Of a stretch of 37,529 nucleotides of DNA, positions 3,017-22,699 are shown piece by piece; positions within the stretch are counted from its first letter, which is position 1; every line of letters begins with the position of its first letter. A program made the translations under genes and the position numbers. Origin of the DNA: Candidatus Lambdaproteobacteria bacterium (GTDB taxonomy: Bacteria; SAR324; JACQKK01); NCBI GenBank assembly GCA_016199125.1, contig JACQHH010000013.1, positions 1-37,529 on the forward strand, read 5' to 3'. Below the pieces are notes generated by a model. That model did no database searches and was not told the origin of the DNA. It worked only from the letters and a program-made list of their open reading frames with translations.

Positions 3017-4390
3017 TCAGCTCGACGTGTCCACCGCCAGCAGGCTGTCCAGGTGGCCGAAGCCGGCAGAGACCCCGCTTTCCAGACTGCTTTCGGCCTT
3101 GGTGCGCACCAGATACCCGACGTCGCGGTTGAGCAGCTCCCGCCTGCCCTCGGCCAGCAATACGCCGAAACGTCCGATTTCGCTCACGTGCGGCCCACCG
3201 CGCGGCACGCCCTCCACGACGGTCAGCGCGTCGTGGGGGCGACTGACAATGCGCTCCATGAGAATGTAGGCATCGCGCTGCTCGGCGGACATCCCCCGCA
3301 ATGCCTCCGCCATGGCCTGGTCGTAGAGATTATTGCCGCCGCCTTCGCGCTGGGGCTTGAGCACATAGCGGACGGGTTCGGCGCAGGCGGCTTCCCAGGC
3401 GGGCAGCTTGCGCGAGCCCAGCGTCAAAGACGCCTGGGGCTCGTACTGCCCCACGAACACCGCGGCCATGGCCTTGCCCTGCTCCGGGGGACAAAAGCGG
3501 GCCAGGGTTGCCGGATCGGTGAGCAGTTGTTGCACCTTCTTGGCTCCGGCCAACTGGGTGGCCACGTCCGGCACAGCGATGGTGGACGAGGCTTCGATCA
3601 GCGCCCGCGCCCGGAGCGCGTCCGGCGTCGCATAGTCTTCCGGCCCGTAGCCGGCGCGGAAATAGGTCAGCGCCGCCACCTCGCCCCGCACCACCAGATG
3701 CCCCTCCCGCAGGGCGCCCTCGCCGGCAAGCTGCGGCAGGGAGAGACGCCGGGTGGCGATGCCCCGCCGCAGCAGCGCGAATTCGAACAGACGCTGGTCG
3801 AAGATGTTGCGCTCCTCCGGCTGAATCACCATCAGGCACACTGCCCCGGGCTGCCCGTAGCGGCCATGGGCCTGGCTCACGGCCTCCACGATGCCCACCA
3901 GCGGATCGTTGGGCAGCAGGCGCGCCGCCTCGGGCTGGCCGGCCAGCAGATGCGCGTGCAGCGCGTGTACGCGGCCCGCCAACCCGGCATAGGCCGCAGA
4001 AATGGTGTTCAGCTCCACCTGCCGCGGCACGTCGTCCGCCGGCGTGTCGCCGATCTGCATCAGGTAATCGTTGCGTGTGACCAGCAGACGCAGGGGCTGG
4101 TCACGATCGGCCGTGCCGGTCAGGGACAGCAGGTTGCGCAGGAACGTATCGTGCCGGGCGGCCGGCTCCAGCGCCGCCCGCAGGAAGGGCACGTCACCCG
4201 CCACGCGCCAGGCAAGGGCGTTGAAGGGGACCGTGAGCGCCTCCAGCCGCGCCATCGCGCGCGCGGGCTGGGGCGAAGGGGTCAGGGCAAAGGGGGCGTG
4301 GGCCAGCCGGCCCTGGGGGGTGTACTTGAGCAGACCGTTGAGCAGGGCGAAATCGATCGCTTCGGCCAGGCGCCGTTCCGGGTCCTTCAT
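3017..4390 (-). CDS. Glutathione synthetase, eukaryotic type
   Basis: Joins gamma-glutamylcysteine and glycine with ATP to make glutathione (EC 6.3.2.3) in the cytoplasm. The 457-residue protein has the eukaryotic GSS layout (human enzyme 474 residues), not the bacterial GshB one. Visible motifs are TRNDYL (105-110), the Mg-binding VELNTISAAY near 125 (E126, N128), the ATP-loop KPQREGGGNNLYD from K345, YILMERI, and the C-terminal substrate-binding VRTKA (R429, K431) followed by SGVSAG. All the key residues I can place are kept, so it should be active. The start lies 13 nt after the stop of the upstream HD-GYP gene, suggesting cotranscription. No gamma-glutamylcysteine ligase is in the window. 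Eukaryote-type GSS is uncommon in bacteria, so transfer is possible, but base composition matches the neighbours. Confidence 0.9.
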   Translation of the reverse strand: MKDPERRLAEAIDFALLNGLLKYTPQGRLAHAPFALTPSPQPARAMARLEALTVPFNALAWRVAGDVPFLRAALEPAARHDTFLRNLLSLTGTADRDQPLRLLVTRNDYLMQIGDTPADDVPRQVELNTISAAYAGLAGRVHALHAHLLAGQPEAARLLPNDPLVGIVEAVSQAHGRYGQPGAVCLMVIQPEERNIFDQRLFEFALLRRGIATRRLSLPQLAGEGALREGHLVVRGEVAALTYFRAGYGPEDYATPDALRARALIEASSTIAVPDVATQLAGAKKVQQLLTDPATLARFCPPEQGKAMAAVFVGQYEPQASLTLGSRKLPAWEAACAEPVRYVLKPQREGGGNNLYDQAMAEALRGMSAEQRDAYILMERIVSRPHDALTVVEGVPRGGPHVSEIGRFGVLLAEGRRELLNRDVGYLVRTKAESSLESGVSAGFGHLDSLLAVDTSS

Positions 4391-6872: not shown

Positions 6873-7676
6873 TCAGAGCGGAACGTGCAGCGCCGACGCG
6901 CCGGTCCTGACCCGACGCAGGCGCGGGACAAACTGGTGGAACTCCAGCGGAATCTCCCGCGCCAGTTCGCGCGCCCGCGTCATCAGCTCTAGAGGCATGG
7001 GCAGCGCCGTGTCCACTTTTCCGAAAAAGATCACGTTGCTGTTGACCCGCACGGAAATACTGAACAACGTCGGCACCACCTGCATCAAGTCCTGCGTCAG
7101 CCGGGAGAGTCCCTGGGGGTCCGAGCCCCACGCATTGCAGACGAGCCAGCCGCCCGGGGCCAGCCGGGCGCGGAACAAGCGCAGGGTCTCCGGCTGCTGA
7201 ATCTCGCTGGCCGCGCCTTCGGCCGTGAAGGCATCCACGAAGATCACGTCGTAGCTGCTGCGGTCCTTGCGCACATGCTCCGCGCCGTTGCCGGCCCACA
7301 CAATCAGGCGCGGCGAGCGCGGCAGGTCAAAACAGGCATAGGCCGCCTCCACCACCTCCGGACTGAGCTCGACGATCCGTTGCTGCACATCGGGAAAGTG
7401 CCGATGAATGAAACGCGGCAGCGTCCCGCCGCCCAGGCCGATGTGCAGCACACGCAGCACCCCCGGGCTGAGCACGAAGGCCATCAGCATCGCCCGCGTG
7501 TAGTCCAGTTGCAGAACATCCGGCGCGTCCGGAATGTACGAACTCTGCACGATGTGATTCCCGAAGCGCAGCTCCCGCCGGGCACCCCGCTCGAACACCT
7601 GCACCAGATGGTGCTGCCCCTGCTTCTCGAACAATTTGCGTTCGAAGGGGATGAATCTCATAGGCGCCGCGGTCAT
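6873..7676 (-). CDS. Spermidine-synthase-fold (class I SAM-type) protein
   Basis: This is a 267-residue Rossmann-fold protein of the spermidine/spermine synthase superfamily. It has the nucleotide loop HIGLGGGTLPRF (about 77-88), the acidic strand end VELSPEVVEAA, and YDVIFVDAF (about 141-149), where true aminopropyltransferases carry D(S/A)xDP. Here the motif reads DAFTAEG, so the residue that deprotonates the amine acceptor is not in its usual context. It may therefore be a methyltransferase-like or other aminopropyl-like enzyme rather than SpeE. No speD or other polyamine gene is nearby. It probably shares a transcript with the haloacid dehalogenase downstream. Confidence 0.75.
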   Translation of the reverse strand: MTAAPMRFIPFERKLFEKQGQHHLVQVFERGARRELRFGNHIVQSSYIPDAPDVLQLDYTRAMLMAFVLSPGVLRVLHIGLGGGTLPRFIHRHFPDVQQRIVELSPEVVEAAYACFDLPRSPRLIVWAGNGAEHVRKDRSSYDVIFVDAFTAEGAASEIQQPETLRLFRARLAPGGWLVCNAWGSDPQGLSRLTQDLMQVVPTLFSISVRVNSNVIFFGKVDTALPMPLELMTRARELAREIPLEFHQFVPRLRRVRTGASALHVPL

Positions 7677-8089: not shown

Positions 8090-8752
8090 ATGACGACCAA
8101 GTTTCAGGTGCTGCTGTCCCTGCGCGACGTGGTGTTGCAGGATGCCGGCGGCGCGCGTACCGAGCCCTTCTCGCTGGACATCCACGAGGCCGAGCGGCTG
8201 CACATGCAGTGCGCCCGCGACGGCTGGCGCGACCGCCTGGTGCAGGTCGTGAGCGGACAGACCAAGCCCGCCCAGGGCTCGCTGCTGGAGGTGGTGCCGG
8301 TGCTGGTGCAGTCCGACGCCAACCTGCGCGCGACGCTGGATCTGAACCGTTCGCTGGCCGACTATCTCCACAGCGAGGATGCGCCGGAGTTCGTCTGGCT
8401 GGAGCAGCGGCGGCGCTCGTTGCAGGTGCTGGTGGATCTGTTGGGCATCGCCCCCGCCGACACGCGGCGACCGCTGAAGCTGCAATCCGCCCAGACCGTC
8501 ACGCGCTATTGGGTGCTGCGCTTTCTGCTCTCGCGCGCGCAGTTGCTGATCGGCTCGGAGATATTCCGGCTGGACGATGCCCAGATCCGCGCGGCCATGG
8601 CGCGGCGCTGGCCCGACCTGCCGGGGGCGGTGCTGGTCTGTGCCCCGCGCGAGGCGCTGCCTGGGCCGGTGGACACCACGCTGCACCTCGACGCGGACGG
8701 CACGGCGCGCATCGAGCGCCAGGATGCCGCGCCAAGCACGGCAGAGGCGTGA
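8090..8752 (+). CDS. Degenerate ABC-ATPase-like protein (pseudo-NBD) upstream of lolD
   Basis: This 220-residue protein follows an ABC nucleotide-binding domain along its whole length but lacks the catalytic motifs. FQVLLSLRDVVLQDAGG...FSLDIHEAERLHMQ matches the first beta strands. CARDGWRDRLVQVVSG (41-56) sits where GxxGxGKSTLLxxxxG belongs and lacks the Walker A lysine. VDLLGI then LQSAQTVTRY (131-140) sits in place of the LSGGQ-QR signature. LLIGSEIFRLDD (152-163) sits at Walker B with the Asp replaced, though a Glu remains. VLVCAP sits where the H-switch VLVTH would be. It ends LHLDADGTARIE, like the usual 'l..G.i'. I chose the ATG at 8090 because the upstream extension looks non-coding. 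I infer it cannot hydrolyse ATP and may be a regulatory or structural partner of an ABC system. A partner permease is not adjacent. Confidence 0.7.
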   Translation: MTTKFQVLLSLRDVVLQDAGGARTEPFSLDIHEAERLHMQCARDGWRDRLVQVVSGQTKPAQGSLLEVVPVLVQSDANLRATLDLNRSLADYLHSEDAPEFVWLEQRRRSLQVLVDLLGIAPADTRRPLKLQSAQTVTRYWVLRFLLSRAQLLIGSEIFRLDDAQIRAAMARRWPDLPGAVLVCAPREALPGPVDTTLHLDADGTARIERQDAAPSTAEA

Positions 8753-8845: not shown

Positions 8846-8874
8846 TTGACCAAGAGCAACGAATTCAGTATCTT
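8846..8874 (+). promoter_or_regulatory. Candidate sigma70 promoter for the lolD-bamA block
   Basis: TTGACC (8846-8851), a 17-nt spacer and TATCTT (8869-8874) form a good sigma70-like promoter. It lies in the 246-base gap between the pseudo-ABC gene and lolD, about 125 nt before the lolD start. It would let the envelope block be transcribed independently of the gene upstream. Confidence 0.5.
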
Positions 8875-8998: not shown

Positions 8999-9706
8999 AT
9001 GGCCCAGCCCGGATTCATCCACATCGCCGACTTGCACAAGCAATACTTGAGTGGCCAGGGCCAGGTGCTGCACATTCTGCGGGGACTCGACCTGGACATT
9101 GCCCAGGCGGACACCGTGTCCATCATGGGAGCCTCGGGCGTGGGCAAGAGCACGCTGCTGCACCTCATCGGTGGCCTGGACACCCCCGATCAGGGACGCA
9201 TCCTCATCGATGGACGACCCCTCGAGGAACTGAGCGAGGATGAGCGTGCCCATTTTCGCAATGAGACCGTCGGGTTCGTGTTCCAGTTTCATCATCTGTT
9301 GATGGACTTCACGGCCCTGGAAAACGTGATGATGCCCATGTGGATCAAGGCCGGGCGCACGCGCGACGTGCGGGCGCAGGGGCTGGGGCTGCTGGAGGAG
9401 GTGGGGCTGGGCCATCGCGCGCAGCATCGCCCGGCCAACCTGTCCGGCGGGGAGCAGCAGCGCCTGGCCATCGCGCGGGCCATCGCCAATCAGCCCGCGA
9501 TCCTGCTGGCCGACGAGCCCACCGGGAACCTGGACGAGGACACGGGGGCGCACGTGACCGAGCTGCTTCTGCGGCTCAACGGGGAACGCCGCATGACCAT
9601 GGTGCTGGTGACGCACAATCCTCACATCGCAGCCAGGATGCGGCACCAATACGTGCTGGAACACGGGCGCCTGCACGCGGCATCACGGGCGCAGCGCGAT
9701 GCCTAG
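8999..9706 (+). CDS. lolD: LolD, ATPase of the lipoprotein-releasing ABC transporter
   Basis: ATP-binding subunit of LolCDE, which extracts outer-membrane lipoproteins from the inner membrane and passes them to LolA. From the ATG at 8999 it is 235 residues, close to the LolD norm; an upstream in-frame ATG at 8954 adds an unlikely His/Pro-rich stretch. All motifs are intact: Walker A GASGVGKS (44-51), signature LSGGEQQR (148-155), Walker [13 protein letters not shown] (168-179) and H206 of the switch. The MacB/LolD-type Q-loop region FVFQFHHLLMDFTALENV is typical. The lolC/E permease is not next to it, which is unusual. Its end overlaps the start of bamA by 8 nt. MacB-type or other small exporters are the alternative, but the bamA linkage favours LolD. 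Confidence 0.85.
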   Translation: MAQPGFIHIADLHKQYLSGQGQVLHILRGLDLDIAQADTVSIMGASGVGKSTLLHLIGGLDTPDQGRILIDGRPLEELSEDERAHFRNETVGFVFQFHHLLMDFTALENVMMPMWIKAGRTRDVRAQGLGLLEEVGLGHRAQHRPANLSGGEQQRLAIARAIANQPAILLADEPTGNLDEDTGAHVTELLLRLNGERRMTMVLVTHNPHIAARMRHQYVLEHGRLHAASRAQRDA

Positions 9707-12206
9707 CAGCGGCCCGGCGCCGGCGTGCTCACCCCGGGCGATCGCCCATCCCCCGCGGCGCCTTGGCTACCCTGCCGCGCGGCCCATCGCATGGGCGCTG
9801 CTCAGCCTGCTGGCGCTGGGCCTGACGGGCTGGGCCTCTCGCGCCCTGGCCCAGACGCCGGCAGTCATCGCCGATATTCGCATCGAGGGCACCACGGCGG
9901 TGGAGCACAGCCAGCTCGTCTCCCGCCTGGCCAGCACCATCGGCGCACCGCTGGACTCCGCAAAGATCACCCAGGATGTTTCGACCATTTTCGAGCTGGG
10001 CCTGTTCCAGGACGTGCGCGCCCAGGTGGAGGAGTTGCCGGGCAAGGGCTACGTGCTCATTTTCAGCGTGGAGGAAAAGCCGCGCATCACGTCCTTGCAG
10101 GTGCTCGGCGCCACGCTGCTCCCGGCCAAGAAGGTTTCGGAGACGGTGACGCTGCGCGCGGGGGCCACCTTTTCGCGCAAGGCCCTGCGCGCCGCCATCG
10201 AGGCGCTGCGCAGGGAATACCGGTCTCGCGGCTACCTGAAAGTCAAGATCACTTCGAAAGCAGAGCGTCTCGGTGCCCAGGCGTATGCCGTCACGATCCT
10301 CGTCGAGGAGACGCCGCGGGTCTATATCACCGACATCCGGGCACACCACAACACCGTGCGCACCGAGCTGTATCTCCAGCGCCTGATGAGCAGCGGCGAG
10401 GTGGACTGCTTCAACTGGATGAACGACTCAGGGGTGTTCGATGAGGACAAGATCAACCAGGACCTGGGCGCCATCACGTCAGACTATCTGTCCAACGGCT
10501 ACATCCGCCTCTACATCCACAAGCCCGAGGTGCGTATCGTGCACAACGCCGAATTTTCGCGCGTGCGCGTGGACCTCACGCTGGACGAAGGCGCTCAATA
10601 CTTCACCGGAAAGGTAGACATCGACGGGGATATTCTGGGCAACAAGGACGAGCTGCTGGAGGTGCTGAACCTGAAAAGCGGCGAGGTCTACAACCCCTAT
10701 CGACAGAACCGCGACGTCTTTGCGCTGAGCGAGATCTACCAGGAGCAGGGCTACGCGTTCGCCCAGGTGCAGCCCGTGTCCCAGATCAACGACAACACCC
10801 ACATCGTGGATGTGACCTACCACATCTCGCGCGGGGACAAGGCCTACATCGGGCGTATCGAGTTCCAGGGCAACCGGGAAACCCGCGATTTCGTCGTGCG
10901 CCGCGAATTCGAGGTGCGCGAGAACGAGCTTTACAACGGACGCAAGCTGCGCGAGTCGCAGGAAAATCTCAGCGCGCTGGGCTATTTTCAGCCGGGCATT
11001 GCGCTGGAACGCGTGCCGGGGGTCGTGGACAACGTGCTGGACATCAACACGGTGTTGGAGGAGTCGCAGACCGGCACGCTGCAGGCACAACTGGGCTATA
11101 GCGAGCAGTCGGGGATCACCGTCGCCGCCTCGGTCTCCAAGGGCAACCTGGGCGGACGCGGCCAGACGCTGCGCTTCTCGGCGCAGGCCAGCCAGACCGG
11201 CACCACCCGCAACTTCACGCTGGACTTCATCGAGCCGCACCTGCTGGATACGAACGTCAGCAGCGACTCCACACTGAACTTCAACCTCACCGACGATCTT
11301 TCCGAGCTGAACCGCGGCGTGATCGAGGAAACCTATGTGTCGCAGGGCTTCGGGTTTCCCGTCTACCGGCGTTGGACGGCCGCGCTGTCCTACGCCATCA
11401 CGGACCGCAACTTCTCCGACGCGATCAATTCGCCCGTGCGCCTGCGGGCCGTGACCCCTTCGCTGCGCTACAATTCGGTGAACCATCCCATCTTCCCCAC
11501 CGACGGCACCAGCCTCACGTTTTCCGTCGCGCAGGTGGGAGGCAGCCTGCTGGGCGGCACCTCCGAATACCGCAGCTATCGCCTGCTCTACCGGAACTTC
11601 GTGAGCCTCAACGAGGACAGCACGCTGATCCTCAGCGGGCGGGTGCGCCTGGGCTGGCTGGAAACCGTGGGCGACAGCAGGGTACCGCCGGAAGACCGCT
11701 TTCGCCTGGGCGGCCTGGCCACGGTGCACGGCTACGACTTTCAGGAGATTGGCGGCGTGTTCGGGCGGCGCCAGCAGAACCTGAACGCGCAAACGCGCGT
11801 GCTGCTCGATGCCATGGGCAATCCTGTGCTGGACAGCGATGGGAACCCCTCCGTGATCACCGTGGACAAGCGTACCCTGGGACTCAGCCAGGCCCAGTTG
11901 GACCAGCTCGCCGGCGGCGGCGTCATGGAGCGCCTGTTCAACCTGGAGCTGCTCTTCCCCCTCACCGGGCCCAGTCTGCGCGGCGTGGTGTTTTACGACG
12001 CCGGCAACGTCAACTCCGAAAAGATCCAATACAAGCTGCTGGGCGAAAAGGAGCCCGATTTCTTCGATCTGCTGCAAAGCGTGGGCTTCGGCGTGCGCTT
12101 CATCACGCCGGTCGGTGTGCTGCGTTTCGAATACGGCGCCAAGCTGGCCAAGGAGAAGGGCGAGTCGCCGGACAAGTTTGATTTTACCATCAGCACCCTG
12201 TTTTAA
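9699..12206 (+). CDS. bamA: BamA, outer-membrane protein assembly factor
   Basis: Core of the BAM complex that folds beta-barrel proteins into the outer membrane. The 835-residue product (E. coli BamA 810) starts with a long, Pro/Arg-rich N-terminus, then a hydrophobic signal segment (about 30-50) ending ALAQT. About five POTRA repeats follow to about residue 420, and then the 16-strand barrel, ending in an aromatic residue (TISTLF). The L6 motif that normally reads VRGF/Y is VHGY here (TVHGYDFQEIGG). An extra polar insertion follows, including DAMGNPVLDSDGNPSV. The ATG at 9699 lies inside the lolD end (ATGCCTAG), implying translational coupling; a later non-ATG start giving a shorter signal peptide is possible. 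ompH follows after 44 nt. Confidence 0.95.
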   Translation: MPSSGPAPACSPRAIAHPPRRLGYPAARPIAWALLSLLALGLTGWASRALAQTPAVIADIRIEGTTAVEHSQLVSRLASTIGAPLDSAKITQDVSTIFELGLFQDVRAQVEELPGKGYVLIFSVEEKPRITSLQVLGATLLPAKKVSETVTLRAGATFSRKALRAAIEALRREYRSRGYLKVKITSKAERLGAQAYAVTILVEETPRVYITDIRAHHNTVRTELYLQRLMSSGEVDCFNWMNDSGVFDEDKINQDLGAITSDYLSNGYIRLYIHKPEVRIVHNAEFSRVRVDLTLDEGAQYFTGKVDIDGDILGNKDELLEVLNLKSGEVYNPYRQNRDVFALSEIYQEQGYAFAQVQPVSQINDNTHIVDVTYHISRGDKAYIGRIEFQGNRETRDFVVRREFEVRENELYNGRKLRESQENLSALGYFQPGIALERVPGVVDNVLDINTVLEESQTGTLQAQLGYSEQSGITVAASVSKGNLGGRGQTLRFSAQASQTGTTRNFTLDFIEPHLLDTNVSSDSTLNFNLTDDLSELNRGVIEETYVSQGFGFPVYRRWTAALSYAITDRNFSDAINSPVRLRAVTPSLRYNSVNHPIFPTDGTSLTFSVAQVGGSLLGGTSEYRSYRLLYRNFVSLNEDSTLILSGRVRLGWLETVGDSRVPPEDRFRLGGLATVHGYDFQEIGGVFGRRQQNLNAQTRVLLDAMGNPVLDSDGNPSVITVDKRTLGLSQAQLDQLAGGGVMERLFNLELLFPLTGPSLRGVVFYDAGNVNSEKIQYKLLGEKEPDFFDLLQSVGFGVRFITPVGVLRFEYGAKLAKEKGESPDKFDFTISTLF

Positions 12207-17860: not shown

Positions 17861-19114
17861 TCACTCGAAAAACGGATTCAGCGTCCCCGCATACCCGGTG
17901 AGCTCCATGTAGCCCGTGCCCTTGACCGCAGCGCCGCGCAGCGTGCCCTCCACGGTCACCGCGCCTTCCCAGTAGGGAAAGGGCACGCCCGGCCCCGCGG
18001 TCAGCTCCTGGGTCTCGAAAGCCGGGCGCACGCTCAGGCGAATCGCCCAGCGCGGCAGATCGATCTGCCAGGTCAGCGGATAGCGTCCGCCGCTGGCGGG
18101 ACTGCGCCACCAGTCGCCGGGCAGCAGCGACTGCCCGGCGTCGCCTAACGCAAACCGCGTCGCCGTGCCGTCCGGCGCCAGCAGCGTGCCGCCGGAAAAC
18201 GGCCCGGCGCTGCCGTCCCGCCGGCGCAGACGATAGAGCATCAGGTCGCTGCCGTCAGAGAGTTGGAGGGCGAACCAATCCCAGCCGGCCAGCTCGGCGC
18301 CGAGCTGCCCGCTGCCGAACTCGTGGTCCATCCAAGCCAGTCCCTCCACCGCGCTCCCGGCGCCTTCCAGGGACAGACGGCCGGTGACCTCCAGGCGCGG
18401 CAGGGAATAGTACCAGGAGGCCTGGCCCGGCGCGGGTCCTTTCTGGTCAAGGCCGCCCTGCCCGTGCAGCAAGGGCGGACGCAGGGCGCGCAGGCGCAGG
18501 TGCAGCCCGAACGCCTCACCGTCCACGTCCAGGGCCACGCCGTGAGGATCGTCCGCCAGTGGCGTGGCGCGCCACGGCTCCAGCCAGACCCGGTGCGCGT
18601 CCCGCGCGGCACCGGCCAGCTCCAGGCTGTCCCGCGCCATCCGGCTCTCATGGAAAAAGCGCCGTCGCCCGATGTCGCTCAGGGCGATGTGGGCCAGGTA
18701 CAGCGATTCCACAGCCCAGGCTGAGCTGCGCGGCGCCGCTCCGCGATGCAGGCTCCGGCGGAAGAAGGTGACCTGGAACCCGAAGCGCCGTCCATCCGCC
18801 CCGCGCAGATTGCCCGTGTAATACCACCATTCCAGGCGGTAGGCCGGGTGTTGGCCGTGGTCGCGGGGAAAGGCCCATTCGCGGGTGCCCACGGCCTGCT
18901 GGACGCCGCCCGCGGCGGCCCCGGACTTTGCCGCGCCGCCCTCGGCCGCCAAGGACGCGGTCCTGTTGCCGGCGCCCGTCAAGAGCAGGCCGGCCAGCAG
19001 CGCGCCCGGCAGCGCCAGATGGATCAGCGTCCGCCATGCGTGCGCGGCGGTGCGGCACGCGCATGGCCCCGGCACCCCACCCCCGCAGTCCTTGGACCGA
19101 TCGCGCGCCCGCAC
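17861..19114 (-). CDS. CrtC/AttH-like lipocalin-domain protein
   Basis: From the proposed GTG at 19114 it is 417 residues, with GGAGG about 7 nt upstream and only 1 nt after the permease stop. A hydrophobic signal or anchor segment lies at about 30-48, so the bulk should be periplasmic; no lipobox Cys is seen. The rest is the double-lipocalin fold of the CrtC/AttH families: HPAYRLEWWYYTGNLRG, FGFQVTFFRRSL, a central SWYYSLPRLEVTGRL, MDHEFGSGQL, WDWFALQLSDGSDLMLYRLR, and a C-terminal EGAVTVEGT...GTGYMELTGYAG. AttH-type proteins are encoded with an ABC ATPase and FtsX-type permeases, as here. A hydrophobic ligand is likely; carotenoid hydratase activity is not implied. Confidence 0.85.
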   Translation of the reverse strand: MRARDRSKDCGGGVPGPCACRTAAHAWRTLIHLALPGALLAGLLLTGAGNRTASLAAEGGAAKSGAAAGGVQQAVGTREWAFPRDHGQHPAYRLEWWYYTGNLRGADGRRFGFQVTFFRRSLHRGAAPRSSAWAVESLYLAHIALSDIGRRRFFHESRMARDSLELAGAARDAHRVWLEPWRATPLADDPHGVALDVDGEAFGLHLRLRALRPPLLHGQGGLDQKGPAPGQASWYYSLPRLEVTGRLSLEGAGSAVEGLAWMDHEFGSGQLGAELAGWDWFALQLSDGSDLMLYRLRRRDGSAGPFSGGTLLAPDGTATRFALGDAGQSLLPGDWWRSPASGGRYPLTWQIDLPRWAIRLSVRPAFETQELTAGPGVPFPYWEGAVTVEGTLRGAAVKGTGYMELTGYAGTLNPFFE

Positions 19115-19115
19115 G

Positions 19116-21674
19116 TCATTCCTCCCGGATGGTGGCCGTGACCGACAGGCGCGTGGCGCGGCGGATGGGATACCAGCTCCCCAGCAACGCGGCCCCCAGG
19201 GCCAGCAGCAGCAGGCGGCCATACGAGCCTTCGGCGGGATGGAATTGCAGGCTCCAGCCAAAGGCGCGCGGGTTGACGACGTACACCAGCAGCGCCGACA
19301 TGACCAGCCCGGTGATCCAGCCCATCAGCGCCGCGCCGAAGGCCATCAGCACCCCCTCCAGGGCCATGGAGCAGCCCACGCGCCGCGCCGACATGCCGAT
19401 GGCGCGCAGGTAGCCCAGCAGCCGCATGCGCTCCTCCAGCAGGGAGGTGAGCGCGCTGACCACGGCGATGAAGGCCACCGCCGCCGCCAGGGCCGCCAGC
19501 ATGTCGGTGATGGCGAAGGTGCGGTCGAATACACTGAGAGCCTCTTCGCGCAGCAGGGCGTTGGGTTGCACCACGACAGCCGCGCCGTCGGGTCCGCTTT
19601 CGATGGCCGCCTGGGCCGTGGCCAGATCGATGCCCGGCTGAACCCAGAGGCCGATGCGCCAGGGCGGGTCATTGCCGTAGAGCGCCAGGTAGCGCTCCCG
19701 CGGCAGATACACGATGCCCGACGGCTCGGAATAGTTCCGCACCACCGCGGCGATGGGCATCCGCTGCATGCCGCCGGGCGTGGGCAGCGCCAGGATGTCG
19801 CCCGGGCGCAGGTACAGCGCCCGCGCCAGCACTTCGGAGACCATCACGGCCCCGGCCTCCACCTGGCGCCGGGCCACGGCCGGATCGGTGCCGGTGAGGG
19901 GCAGATCCTGGATTTCGAAGAAAATCTCGGTGTGCAGCGCAATCACCAGCACCTCGCGCTCGCCCAACAGCACGCGCCGCGAGCTGAGCTCTGCCAGCGA
20001 CTTTACAAAGGGCAGCGCCCGCAGGCGCGCCACCTGCTGCGGGGTGAAATGCGCCTGGGGATCGTCCGCCGCGTCGGCCGGCGACAGGTAGAGCTGTGCC
20101 TGCACGACCTGCCCCAGCCAGAGCACGAACGTGCTGCGGAAGGAACGCACGGTCACCTCGATGGCCAGCGCCAGCGCCAGGGCCACCATCAGCGCGGCCG
20201 TGGACATCCCTGCCCGGGGCAGATTGCGCGCGGCCATGCGCCCCGCGGGACCCAGCGCCCAACCTAGCGGCAGGGCCATCGTGCGACCCAGGAGCAGCAG
20301 CATGAGCGGACAGAACAGCGCCCCGCTCAGCGCCACCAGGGACGTGCCGGCCAGCGCCGCCACCACCGAATCGCCCGGCCAGCCCACCAGGGCCAGCGCC
20401 ACGCCGAGGCTGGCCAACCCCGCGGCCAGCGCCCAGCGCCAGCGCCGCGCCCCGCCATTGCGCCCGATGGCCACGCGCAGGGCGGCCACCGGCGGAATGC
20501 GCGCCCCCGCAATGGCCGGCCACAGGGCGCCGGCCAGCGCCGTGCCGAAGCTCAGCGTCAACCCGGCGGCCCAGGTGCCCGCGTCCAGCGCGACATCGGC
20601 CTGCACCGGGTCGGTGTTGAGGATCACCTCGAACAGCGTGGCGCCCGTGTTGCGCACCATCATGCCGCCCAGCCAGCGCCCCAGCAGCACCCCCAGCACG
20701 CCGCCCACCAGTCCCAGCAACAGCGCCTCGCCCAGCAGCGCCCGCAGGATGCGCCCCCGCGTGGCCCCGATGCAGCGCAGCACCGCGGTCTGATTCGCGC
20801 GCTGCACGGTGGAAAACATGGCCGCGTTGAAGATGAGAAACACCGCCACCAGCAGCGCGAAAAGCCCCAGGGCCTGCAGGTTCAGGCGGAAGGCGCGGGA
20901 CATGGTGGCCACGCGCTCCGTGTTGCGACCCGCCGCCTCCAACCGCAGCGGCGGCGGCAGGACCGCCTGCACGCTCCGCTCCGCGGCGCCGTCGTCCGGG
21001 GCCAGGATCAGATCGATGGCCTCGATGCGGCCCAGCGTGTCGAAGGTTTCCTGAAACGTGCTCACGTCCGTGAGCAACGTCGCGGCAAAGGCCACGGCGC
21101 GCTGGGGAGGCAGCTCGAAGAAGGCCACGGCGTGCAGCAGGGCCGGGCCGTCCGCGCTGTGCGCGGTGAAGGACTGCCCCAATGCCACGCCCAGCTCGGC
21201 GGCCAGCGCCGCGGGCATGGCCACGGCGCCCGGCTCGCCCACGAAGCGCTCCAGCAGGGCCCCGACGCGCGTACCATCGGCGGGCGAGCCCGCCTGGGCC
21301 GCCAGGTAGCGCACGTCGCGAAAGGCCAGATCGCTGAACGGGTCGATGCCCAGCACCGTCAGGTTGCGCCCCTGCAGGCGCACGCGGCGCCGCATGAAGG
21401 GGGCCGTCGCGCACACGCCCGGCAGGCCGCGCAACGTCGCGAACAGCGTCTCCGGCACGCCCTGGCGAGCAGGATCCACCACGCGGTGCGTCGCGCGCCC
21501 GGCCAGGGCCTCGGCGCCCTCGGCAAAGGCCTCCACGGCCCCCTCGGTGGCGAGCTGGATGGCCACGTACACGGCCACGCCCAGCGCGATGCCCAGCAGA
21601 CACAGCAGAGCCTGCAGGCGATGGCGCCGCCAATAGCGGATCTGCGTGCGCAGCACGGCCAGCCCGCCCCTCAT
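19116..21674 (-). CDS. ABC transporter permease with two FtsX/MacB domains
   Basis: This is an 852-residue inner-membrane protein. One N-terminal helix ([22 protein letters not shown]) precedes a large periplasmic region at about 45-260. A first FtsX block of about three to four helices follows from about 270, and more helices lie near 400-490. A second periplasmic region and a C-terminal FtsX block ([37 protein letters not shown]) complete it. The 10-helix duplicated plan resembles YbbP and equals a fusion of AttF and AttG. The ATG at 21674 overlaps the stop of its ATPase gene (ATGA); frames reaching further upstream are shadows. Likely substrates are lipids or lipid-like molecules exchanged with the downstream lipocalin protein. 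Confidence 0.88.
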
Positions 21675-22387
21675 GCCCGGCCCTCCGCGTGCGCGGAACC
21701 CGCCGCGGCCCCGTCCGAGTCGGCCACGATGCGCCCGTCGCGCAGCTCCACGCGGCGTTGCAGGCGCGCGGCCAAGTCGCCGCTGTGCGTGGCGATGATG
21801 AGCGTGGTGCCCTTTACCCGCGTGAGCTCCAGCAGCAGCTCCAGCACCTGCCGCCCCGTGTCCGAATCCAGGTTGCCCGTGGGCTCGTCGGCCAGCACCA
21901 GCTCGGGCTCCAGCATCAGCCCGCGGGCAATGGCCACGCGCTGCTGCTCGCCTCCGGAGAGCCTGTCGGGCATGGCGTGGCCGCGCTGCGCCAGCCCCAC
22001 GCCCGCCAGCAGGGCGGACGCACGCGCCTGGCCCTCCCGGTGGGGCAGCCCCGCCAGCTCCGCCGGCAGCAGCAGGTTCTCGTAGACCGAGAGGGTGGGC
22101 AGCAGGTGGAAGAACTGGAACACGAAGCCCACGTGGCGCAGGCGGAAGGTGGTGAGCTGCGCATCGTTCATCTCGTGCAGGGCCTGGCCGCGCACGCGGA
22201 TGCGCCCGCCACTGGGATGCTCCAGCCCCCCGATGAGGTGCAGCAGCGTGCTCTTGCCCGAGCCGCTCTTGCCCAGCAGGGCCACCGTCTGTCCGGCGGG
22301 CACGCGCAGATCGATCCCGGCCAGGGCCAGGATTTCGCGCTGACCGTCCGCGTAGCCCCGCGACACCCGTTCCAGTTCCACGATCAT
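21671..22387 (-). CDS. ABC transporter ATPase (LolD/YbbA/AttE-like)
   Basis: This 238-residue ATPase energises the adjacent FtsX-type permease. Motifs are intact: Walker A GKSGSGKS (39-46), Q-loop [21 protein letters not shown], signature LSGGEQQR (143-150), Walker [13 protein letters not shown] (163-174) and H201. The family is the MacB/LolD/YbbA group. The ATG at 22387 is preceded by GGAGGCG at about 8 nt; the 43-residue upstream extension is rejected. It is the first gene of the tightly coupled ATPase-permease-lipocalin operon. Confidence 0.9.
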
Positions 22388-22540
22388 CGGCGGGGCGCCT
22401 CCATGGGCAGCTTGACGCGCCCCGGATCGGGGGCGGTGCCCCGGCGTATGGAGGAGGGACCGCGGGGTCCGTGCGGGCGGTGGACTGGGGCGATATTTGG
22501 CCACATCGACATGCAATCTGTGCTAAACAGAAGGAGACCC

Positions 22541-22699
22541 ATGGAGCGGCTGGCCGCAGCCGCACCCACCCCCTCATCGGGTTGGCCGTGGCGCGCCATG
22601 CGGTGCCTGGGGGGCCCAGCGCCCCGCTCACGGCCCTCGCGTGATCCACCCGGCAGCACCCGCGAACCGCCGGCGCAACGTGCGGGAGCCTGGAATTGA
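22541..22699 (+). CDS. Possible 52-residue leader ORF overlapping the next start
   Basis: An ATG at 22541 is preceded by AAGGAG at near-ideal spacing, one of the best ribosome sites in the window. It opens a 52-residue frame ending at a TGA that overlaps the TTG start of the next gene by three bases (TTGA). The peptide (MERLAAAAPTPSSGWPWRAM...) is Pro/Arg-rich with no domain. It could be a coupled leader peptide, a decoy site, or mark another start for the neighbouring gene through a frame change. Coding value is uncertain. Confidence 0.3.
   Translation: MERLAAAAPTPSSGWPWRAMRCLGGPAPRSRPSRDPPGSTREPPAQRAGAWN

Follow-up and report, generated by a model that had tools for sequence, protein, structure and literature searches.

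The gene at positions 8090–8752 of the window encodes a stand-alone relative of the C-terminal nucleotide-binding domain (NBD) of ABC-F proteins. It is best explained as a member of a SAR324-restricted family of ABC-F-derived pseudo-ATPases that probably act as ATP-independent adaptors in translation, and to this explanation as a whole we assign a probability of about one-half. The window is the whole stretch of DNA that was analyzed, 37,529 nucleotides of contig JACQHH010000013.1 from a Candidatus Lambdaproteobacteria bacterium of the SAR324 lineage. The gene, the motif positions within it, and its neighbors are as follows.

6873–7676, minus strand: polyamine aminopropyltransferase-like (PRK04457-type) protein, divergent neighbor
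8090–8752, plus strand: pseudo-ABC gene, ATG at 8090 to TGA at 8752, 220 amino acids; stand-alone, predicted to be catalytically dead, relative of the Uup-type ABC-F second NBD
8210–8233, plus strand: Walker A (P-loop) position, CARDGWRD (residues 41–48) as against GxxGxGKS/T, from the Uup alignment
8309–8323, plus strand: Q-loop position, QSDAN (residues 74–78), from the alignment
8480–8494, plus strand: ABC signature position, QSAQT (residues 131–135) as against LSGGE, from the Uup alignment
8546–8560, plus strand: Walker B position, LIGSE (residues 153–157) as against LLLDE; Asp lost, Glu column kept
8567–8578, plus strand: D-loop position, RLDD (residues 160–163), from the alignment
8846–8874, plus strand: TTGACC-17-TATCTT, a promoter-like site in the interval that separates lolD from the pseudo-ABC gene
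9002–9706, plus strand: lolD, a canonical ABC ATPase with intact motifs; neighbor, outside the pseudo-ABC family
9699–12206, plus strand: bamA, neighbor

Elsewhere in the window, at 3017–4390 on the minus strand, this bacterial genome encodes a glutathione synthase of the eukaryotic type (PF03917, E = 1.6e-78), with genes for an HD-domain protein and a LysM protein as neighbors.

The AlphaFold model of the window protein has a pLDDT of 94.2 and a pTM of 0.88, and a Foldseek search with this model gave 1135 PDB matches at E ≤ 1e-3, headed by EttA (1.1e-13) and with Uup in fourth place (1.1e-11). The structure prediction that the preliminary description had suggested thus confirms the core fold of an ABC NBD, with ABC-F proteins as the best structural matches. 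An alignment of 20 members, which constitute one domain-length family, was the basis of a profile search against the PDB sequences. The best match was the second NBD of Uup (9nlj, E = 1.8e-23) over profile positions 4–203, an extent that, with the model and the Foldseek matches, agrees with the earlier proposal that the sequence follows an ABC NBD from end to end. ExpZ, PoxtA, YheS, and EttA were matched after Uup, and the 17 best matches are all ABC-F proteins. When the profile was compared with the ABC-F proteins of SAR324, the second domains of Uup scored 49–71 bits and those of EttA 36–47 bits, a third ABC-F group reached at most about 34 bits, and first domains did not exceed about 22 bits. 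In a tree of 56 rows, including 28 pseudo-ABC sequences, ABC-F first and second domains, and LolD-type controls, the pseudo-ABC sequences form one clade (SH-aLRT 99) that groups with the ABC-F second domains (90) and lies apart from the first domains and the controls, although the exact attachment point is insecure and the tree program warns of long branches. Kinship with the LolD-type ATPases was rejected, the closest kin being ABC-F second domains and not LolD or MlaF types. From profile, fold, and tree together we are confident that the protein is what it appears to be and that it descends from the C-terminal NBD of a Uup/EttA-type ABC-F protein.

The tandem NBDs that define an ABC-F protein are nevertheless not present, since the 220 residues make up one domain, and a scan of 20 members gave no match to the ABC-F linker (PF12848). 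Searched as a single sequence, the window protein has no ABC_tran match in Pfam and no match in NCBIfam, and the 20 members together gave one weak ABC_tran match (E = 0.02) in Pfam; the family is covered by no model of either collection. The window protein has a pI of 5.8, and net charge across the family is mixed, with no general RNA-binding signature.

Four families of SAR324 are represented, namely the window's own (f1), a sister family (f2), a sister order of the same class (f3), and f4. A search with the single protein found homologs in 31 of 58 genomes, its weakest matches including an ordinary ABC-F protein (G004, 692 amino acids), and relatives at 30–51% identity are present in 7 of the 9 other f1 genomes. 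The search with a 26-row alignment found short-frame matches in 42 of 52 SAR324 genomes, comprising 8 of 10 in f1, 24 of 31 in f2, 9 of 10 in f3, and the single genome of f4. Nearly all of these matches lie in frames of 155–261 amino acids, and the longer stop-to-stop frames in G008 (271), G005 (320), and G000 (362) are due to open upstream sequence. No stand-alone relative was found in 188 genomes of other phyla, where every match fell in a frame of 541–776 amino acids, the size of an ABC-F protein, and a profile of the f3 members had no match at 1e-8 in 331 genomes of other phyla. Among 383 genomes, the f3 profile found SAR324 members only and cross-matched those of f2 (best 3e-12) and f4 (4e-19); hhalign of the 20-member alignment with the f3 homologs gave a probability of 98.6% and an E value of 8e-16. 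These cross-matches and the hhalign result unite the members of f1–f4, and it is very likely that they form one SAR324-wide family. The structure model of an f3 member is weak (pLDDT 69.5, Foldseek TM about 0.35), so the link of f3 to the family rests on sequence profiles. The gene is absent from G004, which is 97% complete, and broken copies, frame-split or truncated, are found at L058:4844–5531 (G025) and L110:8710–9240 (G042), where sequencing error is possible; the gene is therefore conserved but not essential everywhere.

The catalytic motifs were assigned by aligning 26 members with ten intact SAR324 Uup second domains, in which the reference motifs are GxNGxGKS/T, FDQ, LSGGE, LLLDE, N(D/N)LD, and I/VTHD. 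The window frame has CARDGWRDRL at the P-loop position, LQSAQ at the signature position, and CAPR at the H-switch position as against ITHD in Uup; with the missing Walker B Asp, the losses listed in the preliminary description are all upheld by this alignment. Neither Walker A (GxxGxGKS/T) nor the LSGGQ/E signature is present in any of the 26 members, and the Walker B Asp is kept only in some f2 members, including some from g11, with the Asp-Glu pair intact in none. Glu occupies the catalytic-Glu column in 7 of the 8 members of the window's family. Asp76 of the Q-loop is almost invariant across the pseudo-ABC family, and retention of the D-loop Asp is widespread, with Asp163 almost invariant in the alignment of f1 and f2. 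Together with R36 and W103, these two residues are taken to mark a conserved surface. The named motifs are therefore lost, but not every column of the catalytic core. It is highly probable that the protein is non-catalytic and, judging from the missing motifs, an ordinary ATP-sandwich mechanism should be impossible: with the P-loop and signature both gone, a head-to-tail pair that included this protein would lack both of its composite ATP sites. A similar EEQ-type stretch commonly occupies the P-loop columns in f2 and f3, consistent with a loss of the P-loop before the families split.

Pairs with at least 63% amino acid identity and dS below 2 have dN/dS values of 0.13–0.33, which shows purifying selection in close pairs. 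The very GC-rich pairs from the window's family gave 0.42–0.74, values that are unreliable because the synonymous sites are compositionally constrained and that were left out of this range. The loss of all catalytic motifs and the broken copies in G025 and G042 are what a decaying pseudogene or a spurious frame could produce, but that explanation is hardly credible given an intact frame in most of the 42 genomes, the low dN/dS of the close pairs, and a confident fold; a chance or decaying frame was ruled out by these values, the fold, and the existence of relatives. The view that this is a maintained non-catalytic domain is accordingly retained, with support also from the conservation of the gene in 42 of 52 SAR324 genomes.

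In the window's family, the gene is directly upstream of lolD-bamA in the same orientation at 7 of 8 loci, an arrangement in favor of the earlier suggestion that the product might work with LolD, as its asymmetric partner or as a regulator, in a complex for the transport of lipoproteins or other envelope components. The linkage search across genomes that had been proposed with that suggestion found the association with lolD-bamA in the window's family only, with two exceptions even there. In G001 the pseudo-ABC gene is next to the polyamine gene (L022) and lolD-bamA is on another contig (L122), whereas in G004 (L124:3933–5850) lolD lies directly beside the polyamine gene with nothing in between, the pseudo-ABC gene being missing. 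Members of the sister family and the sister order lack the linkage, and lolD-bamA in f2 and f3 has other neighbors. Most f1 members carry a CTTGACC/TA promoter-like motif ahead of lolD, so that lolD has a promoter-like site of its own; G001 keeps this motif although its lolD has no pseudo-ABC gene in front of it. Between the pseudo-ABC gene and lolD, the search for an RNA leader revealed no consensus structure but only the shared promoter-like motif. Since the closest kin are ABC-F domains and a protein that lacks the signature and Walker A can form no composite ATP site, a partnership with LolD is very unlikely. The lolD neighborhood is an arrangement specific to the window's lineage, in which the most constant neighbor is the divergent polyamine aminopropyltransferase-like gene, present in all 7 f1 loci where the contig extends far enough. 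The lolD of the window matches TIGR02211 at 1.8e-81, yet under the curated cut-off of that model. The earlier statement that no lolC/E is nearby is correct for the lolD-bamA stretch, but at 19116–22649 the window has another LolD/MacB-type ATPase, together with permease domains of the FtsX type. This locus (17861–22649, minus strand) includes, besides the ATPase at 21671–22516 and its FtsX-type and MacB_PCD domains, a CrtC/lipocalin protein at 17861–19261 (minus strand), and it resembles an Att-type lipocalin-plus-ABC locus. In f3, a lolC/E-like reading frame, judged by eye, is directly upstream of lolD.

The gene context differs in the other groups. In f2, 17 of 18 loci, from 7 of 8 genera, have the gene next to tsaE-tsaB in divergent orientation, and dnaG-rpoD usually follows. 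This adjacency suggested a dedicated regulator of TsaE/TsaB in t6A synthesis, that is, an NBD-shaped protein binding the TsaE ATPase or the TsaBDE complex, but divergent adjacency need not imply a common function and the gene persists in f1 and f3 apart from tsaE-tsaB, so that such a role is quite unlikely. An M23 peptidase (EnvC-like) is encoded between the pseudo-ABC gene and dnaG, in the opposite orientation, in several f2 genera (L030:9400–10593, L028:7031–8275, L029:1982–3256, and L031:9066–10301). In f3, epmA is a neighbor in 7 of 9 loci, a WbuC cupin in 6 of 9, and efp in 5. In several f3 loci the cupin gene is immediately adjacent to and co-directional with the pseudo-ABC gene, as at L055:5185–6321, L052:8440–9630, and L053:8678–9928, where the two abut beside epmA-efp, and they are possibly a small operon. 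A different mode of action would be to modulate full-length ABC-F proteins or act as their decoy, by mimicking the second NBD and competing for either the first NBD or the ABC-F site of the ribosome. Derivation from the second NBD, the domain that does this pairing, and the presence of full-length ABC-F proteins in 46 of 52 SAR324 genomes are in accord with it; a normal NBD1-NBD2 sandwich, however, is impossible without a signature and P-loop, and the gene persists in f1 and g11, lineages in which the profile search detected no Uup-type protein. We regard a decoy as rather unlikely. A structural protein acting outside translation, for example in the envelope, polyamine metabolism, or the cell cycle, with neighbors that vary by lineage, would account for the variety of neighborhoods among the families (lolD, polyamine synthase, dnaG-rpoD, M23 peptidase, and efp). 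It is a more serious alternative but still doubtful in view of the ABC-F ancestry and the recurrence of translation genes beside the gene in two groups.

The preferred explanation, an ABC-F-derived pseudo-ATPase with an adaptor role in translation, can be outlined as follows. An ancient family of stand-alone pseudo-ATPases, restricted to SAR324, would have arisen from the ABC-F C-terminal NBD, with the first domain, the linker, and the C-terminal coil of ABC-F absent. The P-loop and signature, absent in all members, were presumably lost before the sampled SAR324 families split, while the NBD core fold appears to have been kept and the gene, to judge from close pairs, maintained by purifying selection. 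Ancestry and neighbors suggest that the product most likely serves translation as a binding protein or adaptor, independently of ATP; it might dock on the ribosome, at a site that it inherited from ABC-F, or on EF-P or factors of the t6A machinery. A role of this kind is suggested by the ribosome-acting parent family, by the cooperation of Uup/YfmR with EF-P in Bacillus subtilis (PMC11381351), and by EF-P-modification and t6A genes as neighbors in two groups; EQ2 mutants of all four Escherichia coli ABC-F proteins inhibit protein synthesis (PMC6723617). This is the weakest step of the explanation. The f1 neighbors, lolD-bamA and the polyamine-synthase-like gene, include no clear translation factors, the protein is without the ABC-F linker that touches tRNA, and the neighborhoods may be inherited synteny, because they differ between groups and dnaG-rpoD is also close in f2. 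A translation-related role, judged from ancestry and gene context, therefore has slightly less than an even chance, and we propose more tentatively that this phylum-wide non-catalytic ABC-F derivative is an ATP-independent translation factor, serving permanently as an adaptor at the ribosome or at the EF-P/t6A machinery. Gene order and ancestry identify no partner, and any specific one is improbable.

No described family of this kind was found in the open-access literature searched, although absence there is weak evidence. The family brings to notice a gene that is conserved yet unannotated, in a lineage with no cultured members. If the explanation is correct, the retention of a stand-alone dead ABC-F domain throughout a phylum would mean that this scaffold is useful even without ATP, and the protein would offer a defined test of how much of ABC-F action on the ribosome is simple binding.

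Among known systems, the C-terminal NBD of Uup is most similar, as the best full-domain profile match and in its fold, D-loop Asp, and other core features, but the pseudo-ABC protein stands alone, without the first NBD, linker, C-terminal coil, Walker A, signature, Walker B Asp, and H-switch. EttA, the best Foldseek match, and other ABC-F proteins share the fold but have two active NBDs and a tRNA-touching linker, and their profile scores are below those of Uup. LolD belongs to the same superfamily and is encoded by the adjacent gene in the window's family; its motifs, however, are intact, it is on a separate control branch of the tree, and the linkage is not conserved outside f1. The degenerate-site NBDs of asymmetric ABC exporters are likewise ABC domains with degenerate catalytic motifs that are kept by selection. 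In such exporters the degenerate site operates next to an intact one within the transporter, and known degenerate ABC domains generally act beside an active partner site, whereas the pseudo-ABC protein stands alone with both site contributions gone. The family is a stand-alone pseudoenzyme that had its origin in an ABC-F domain.
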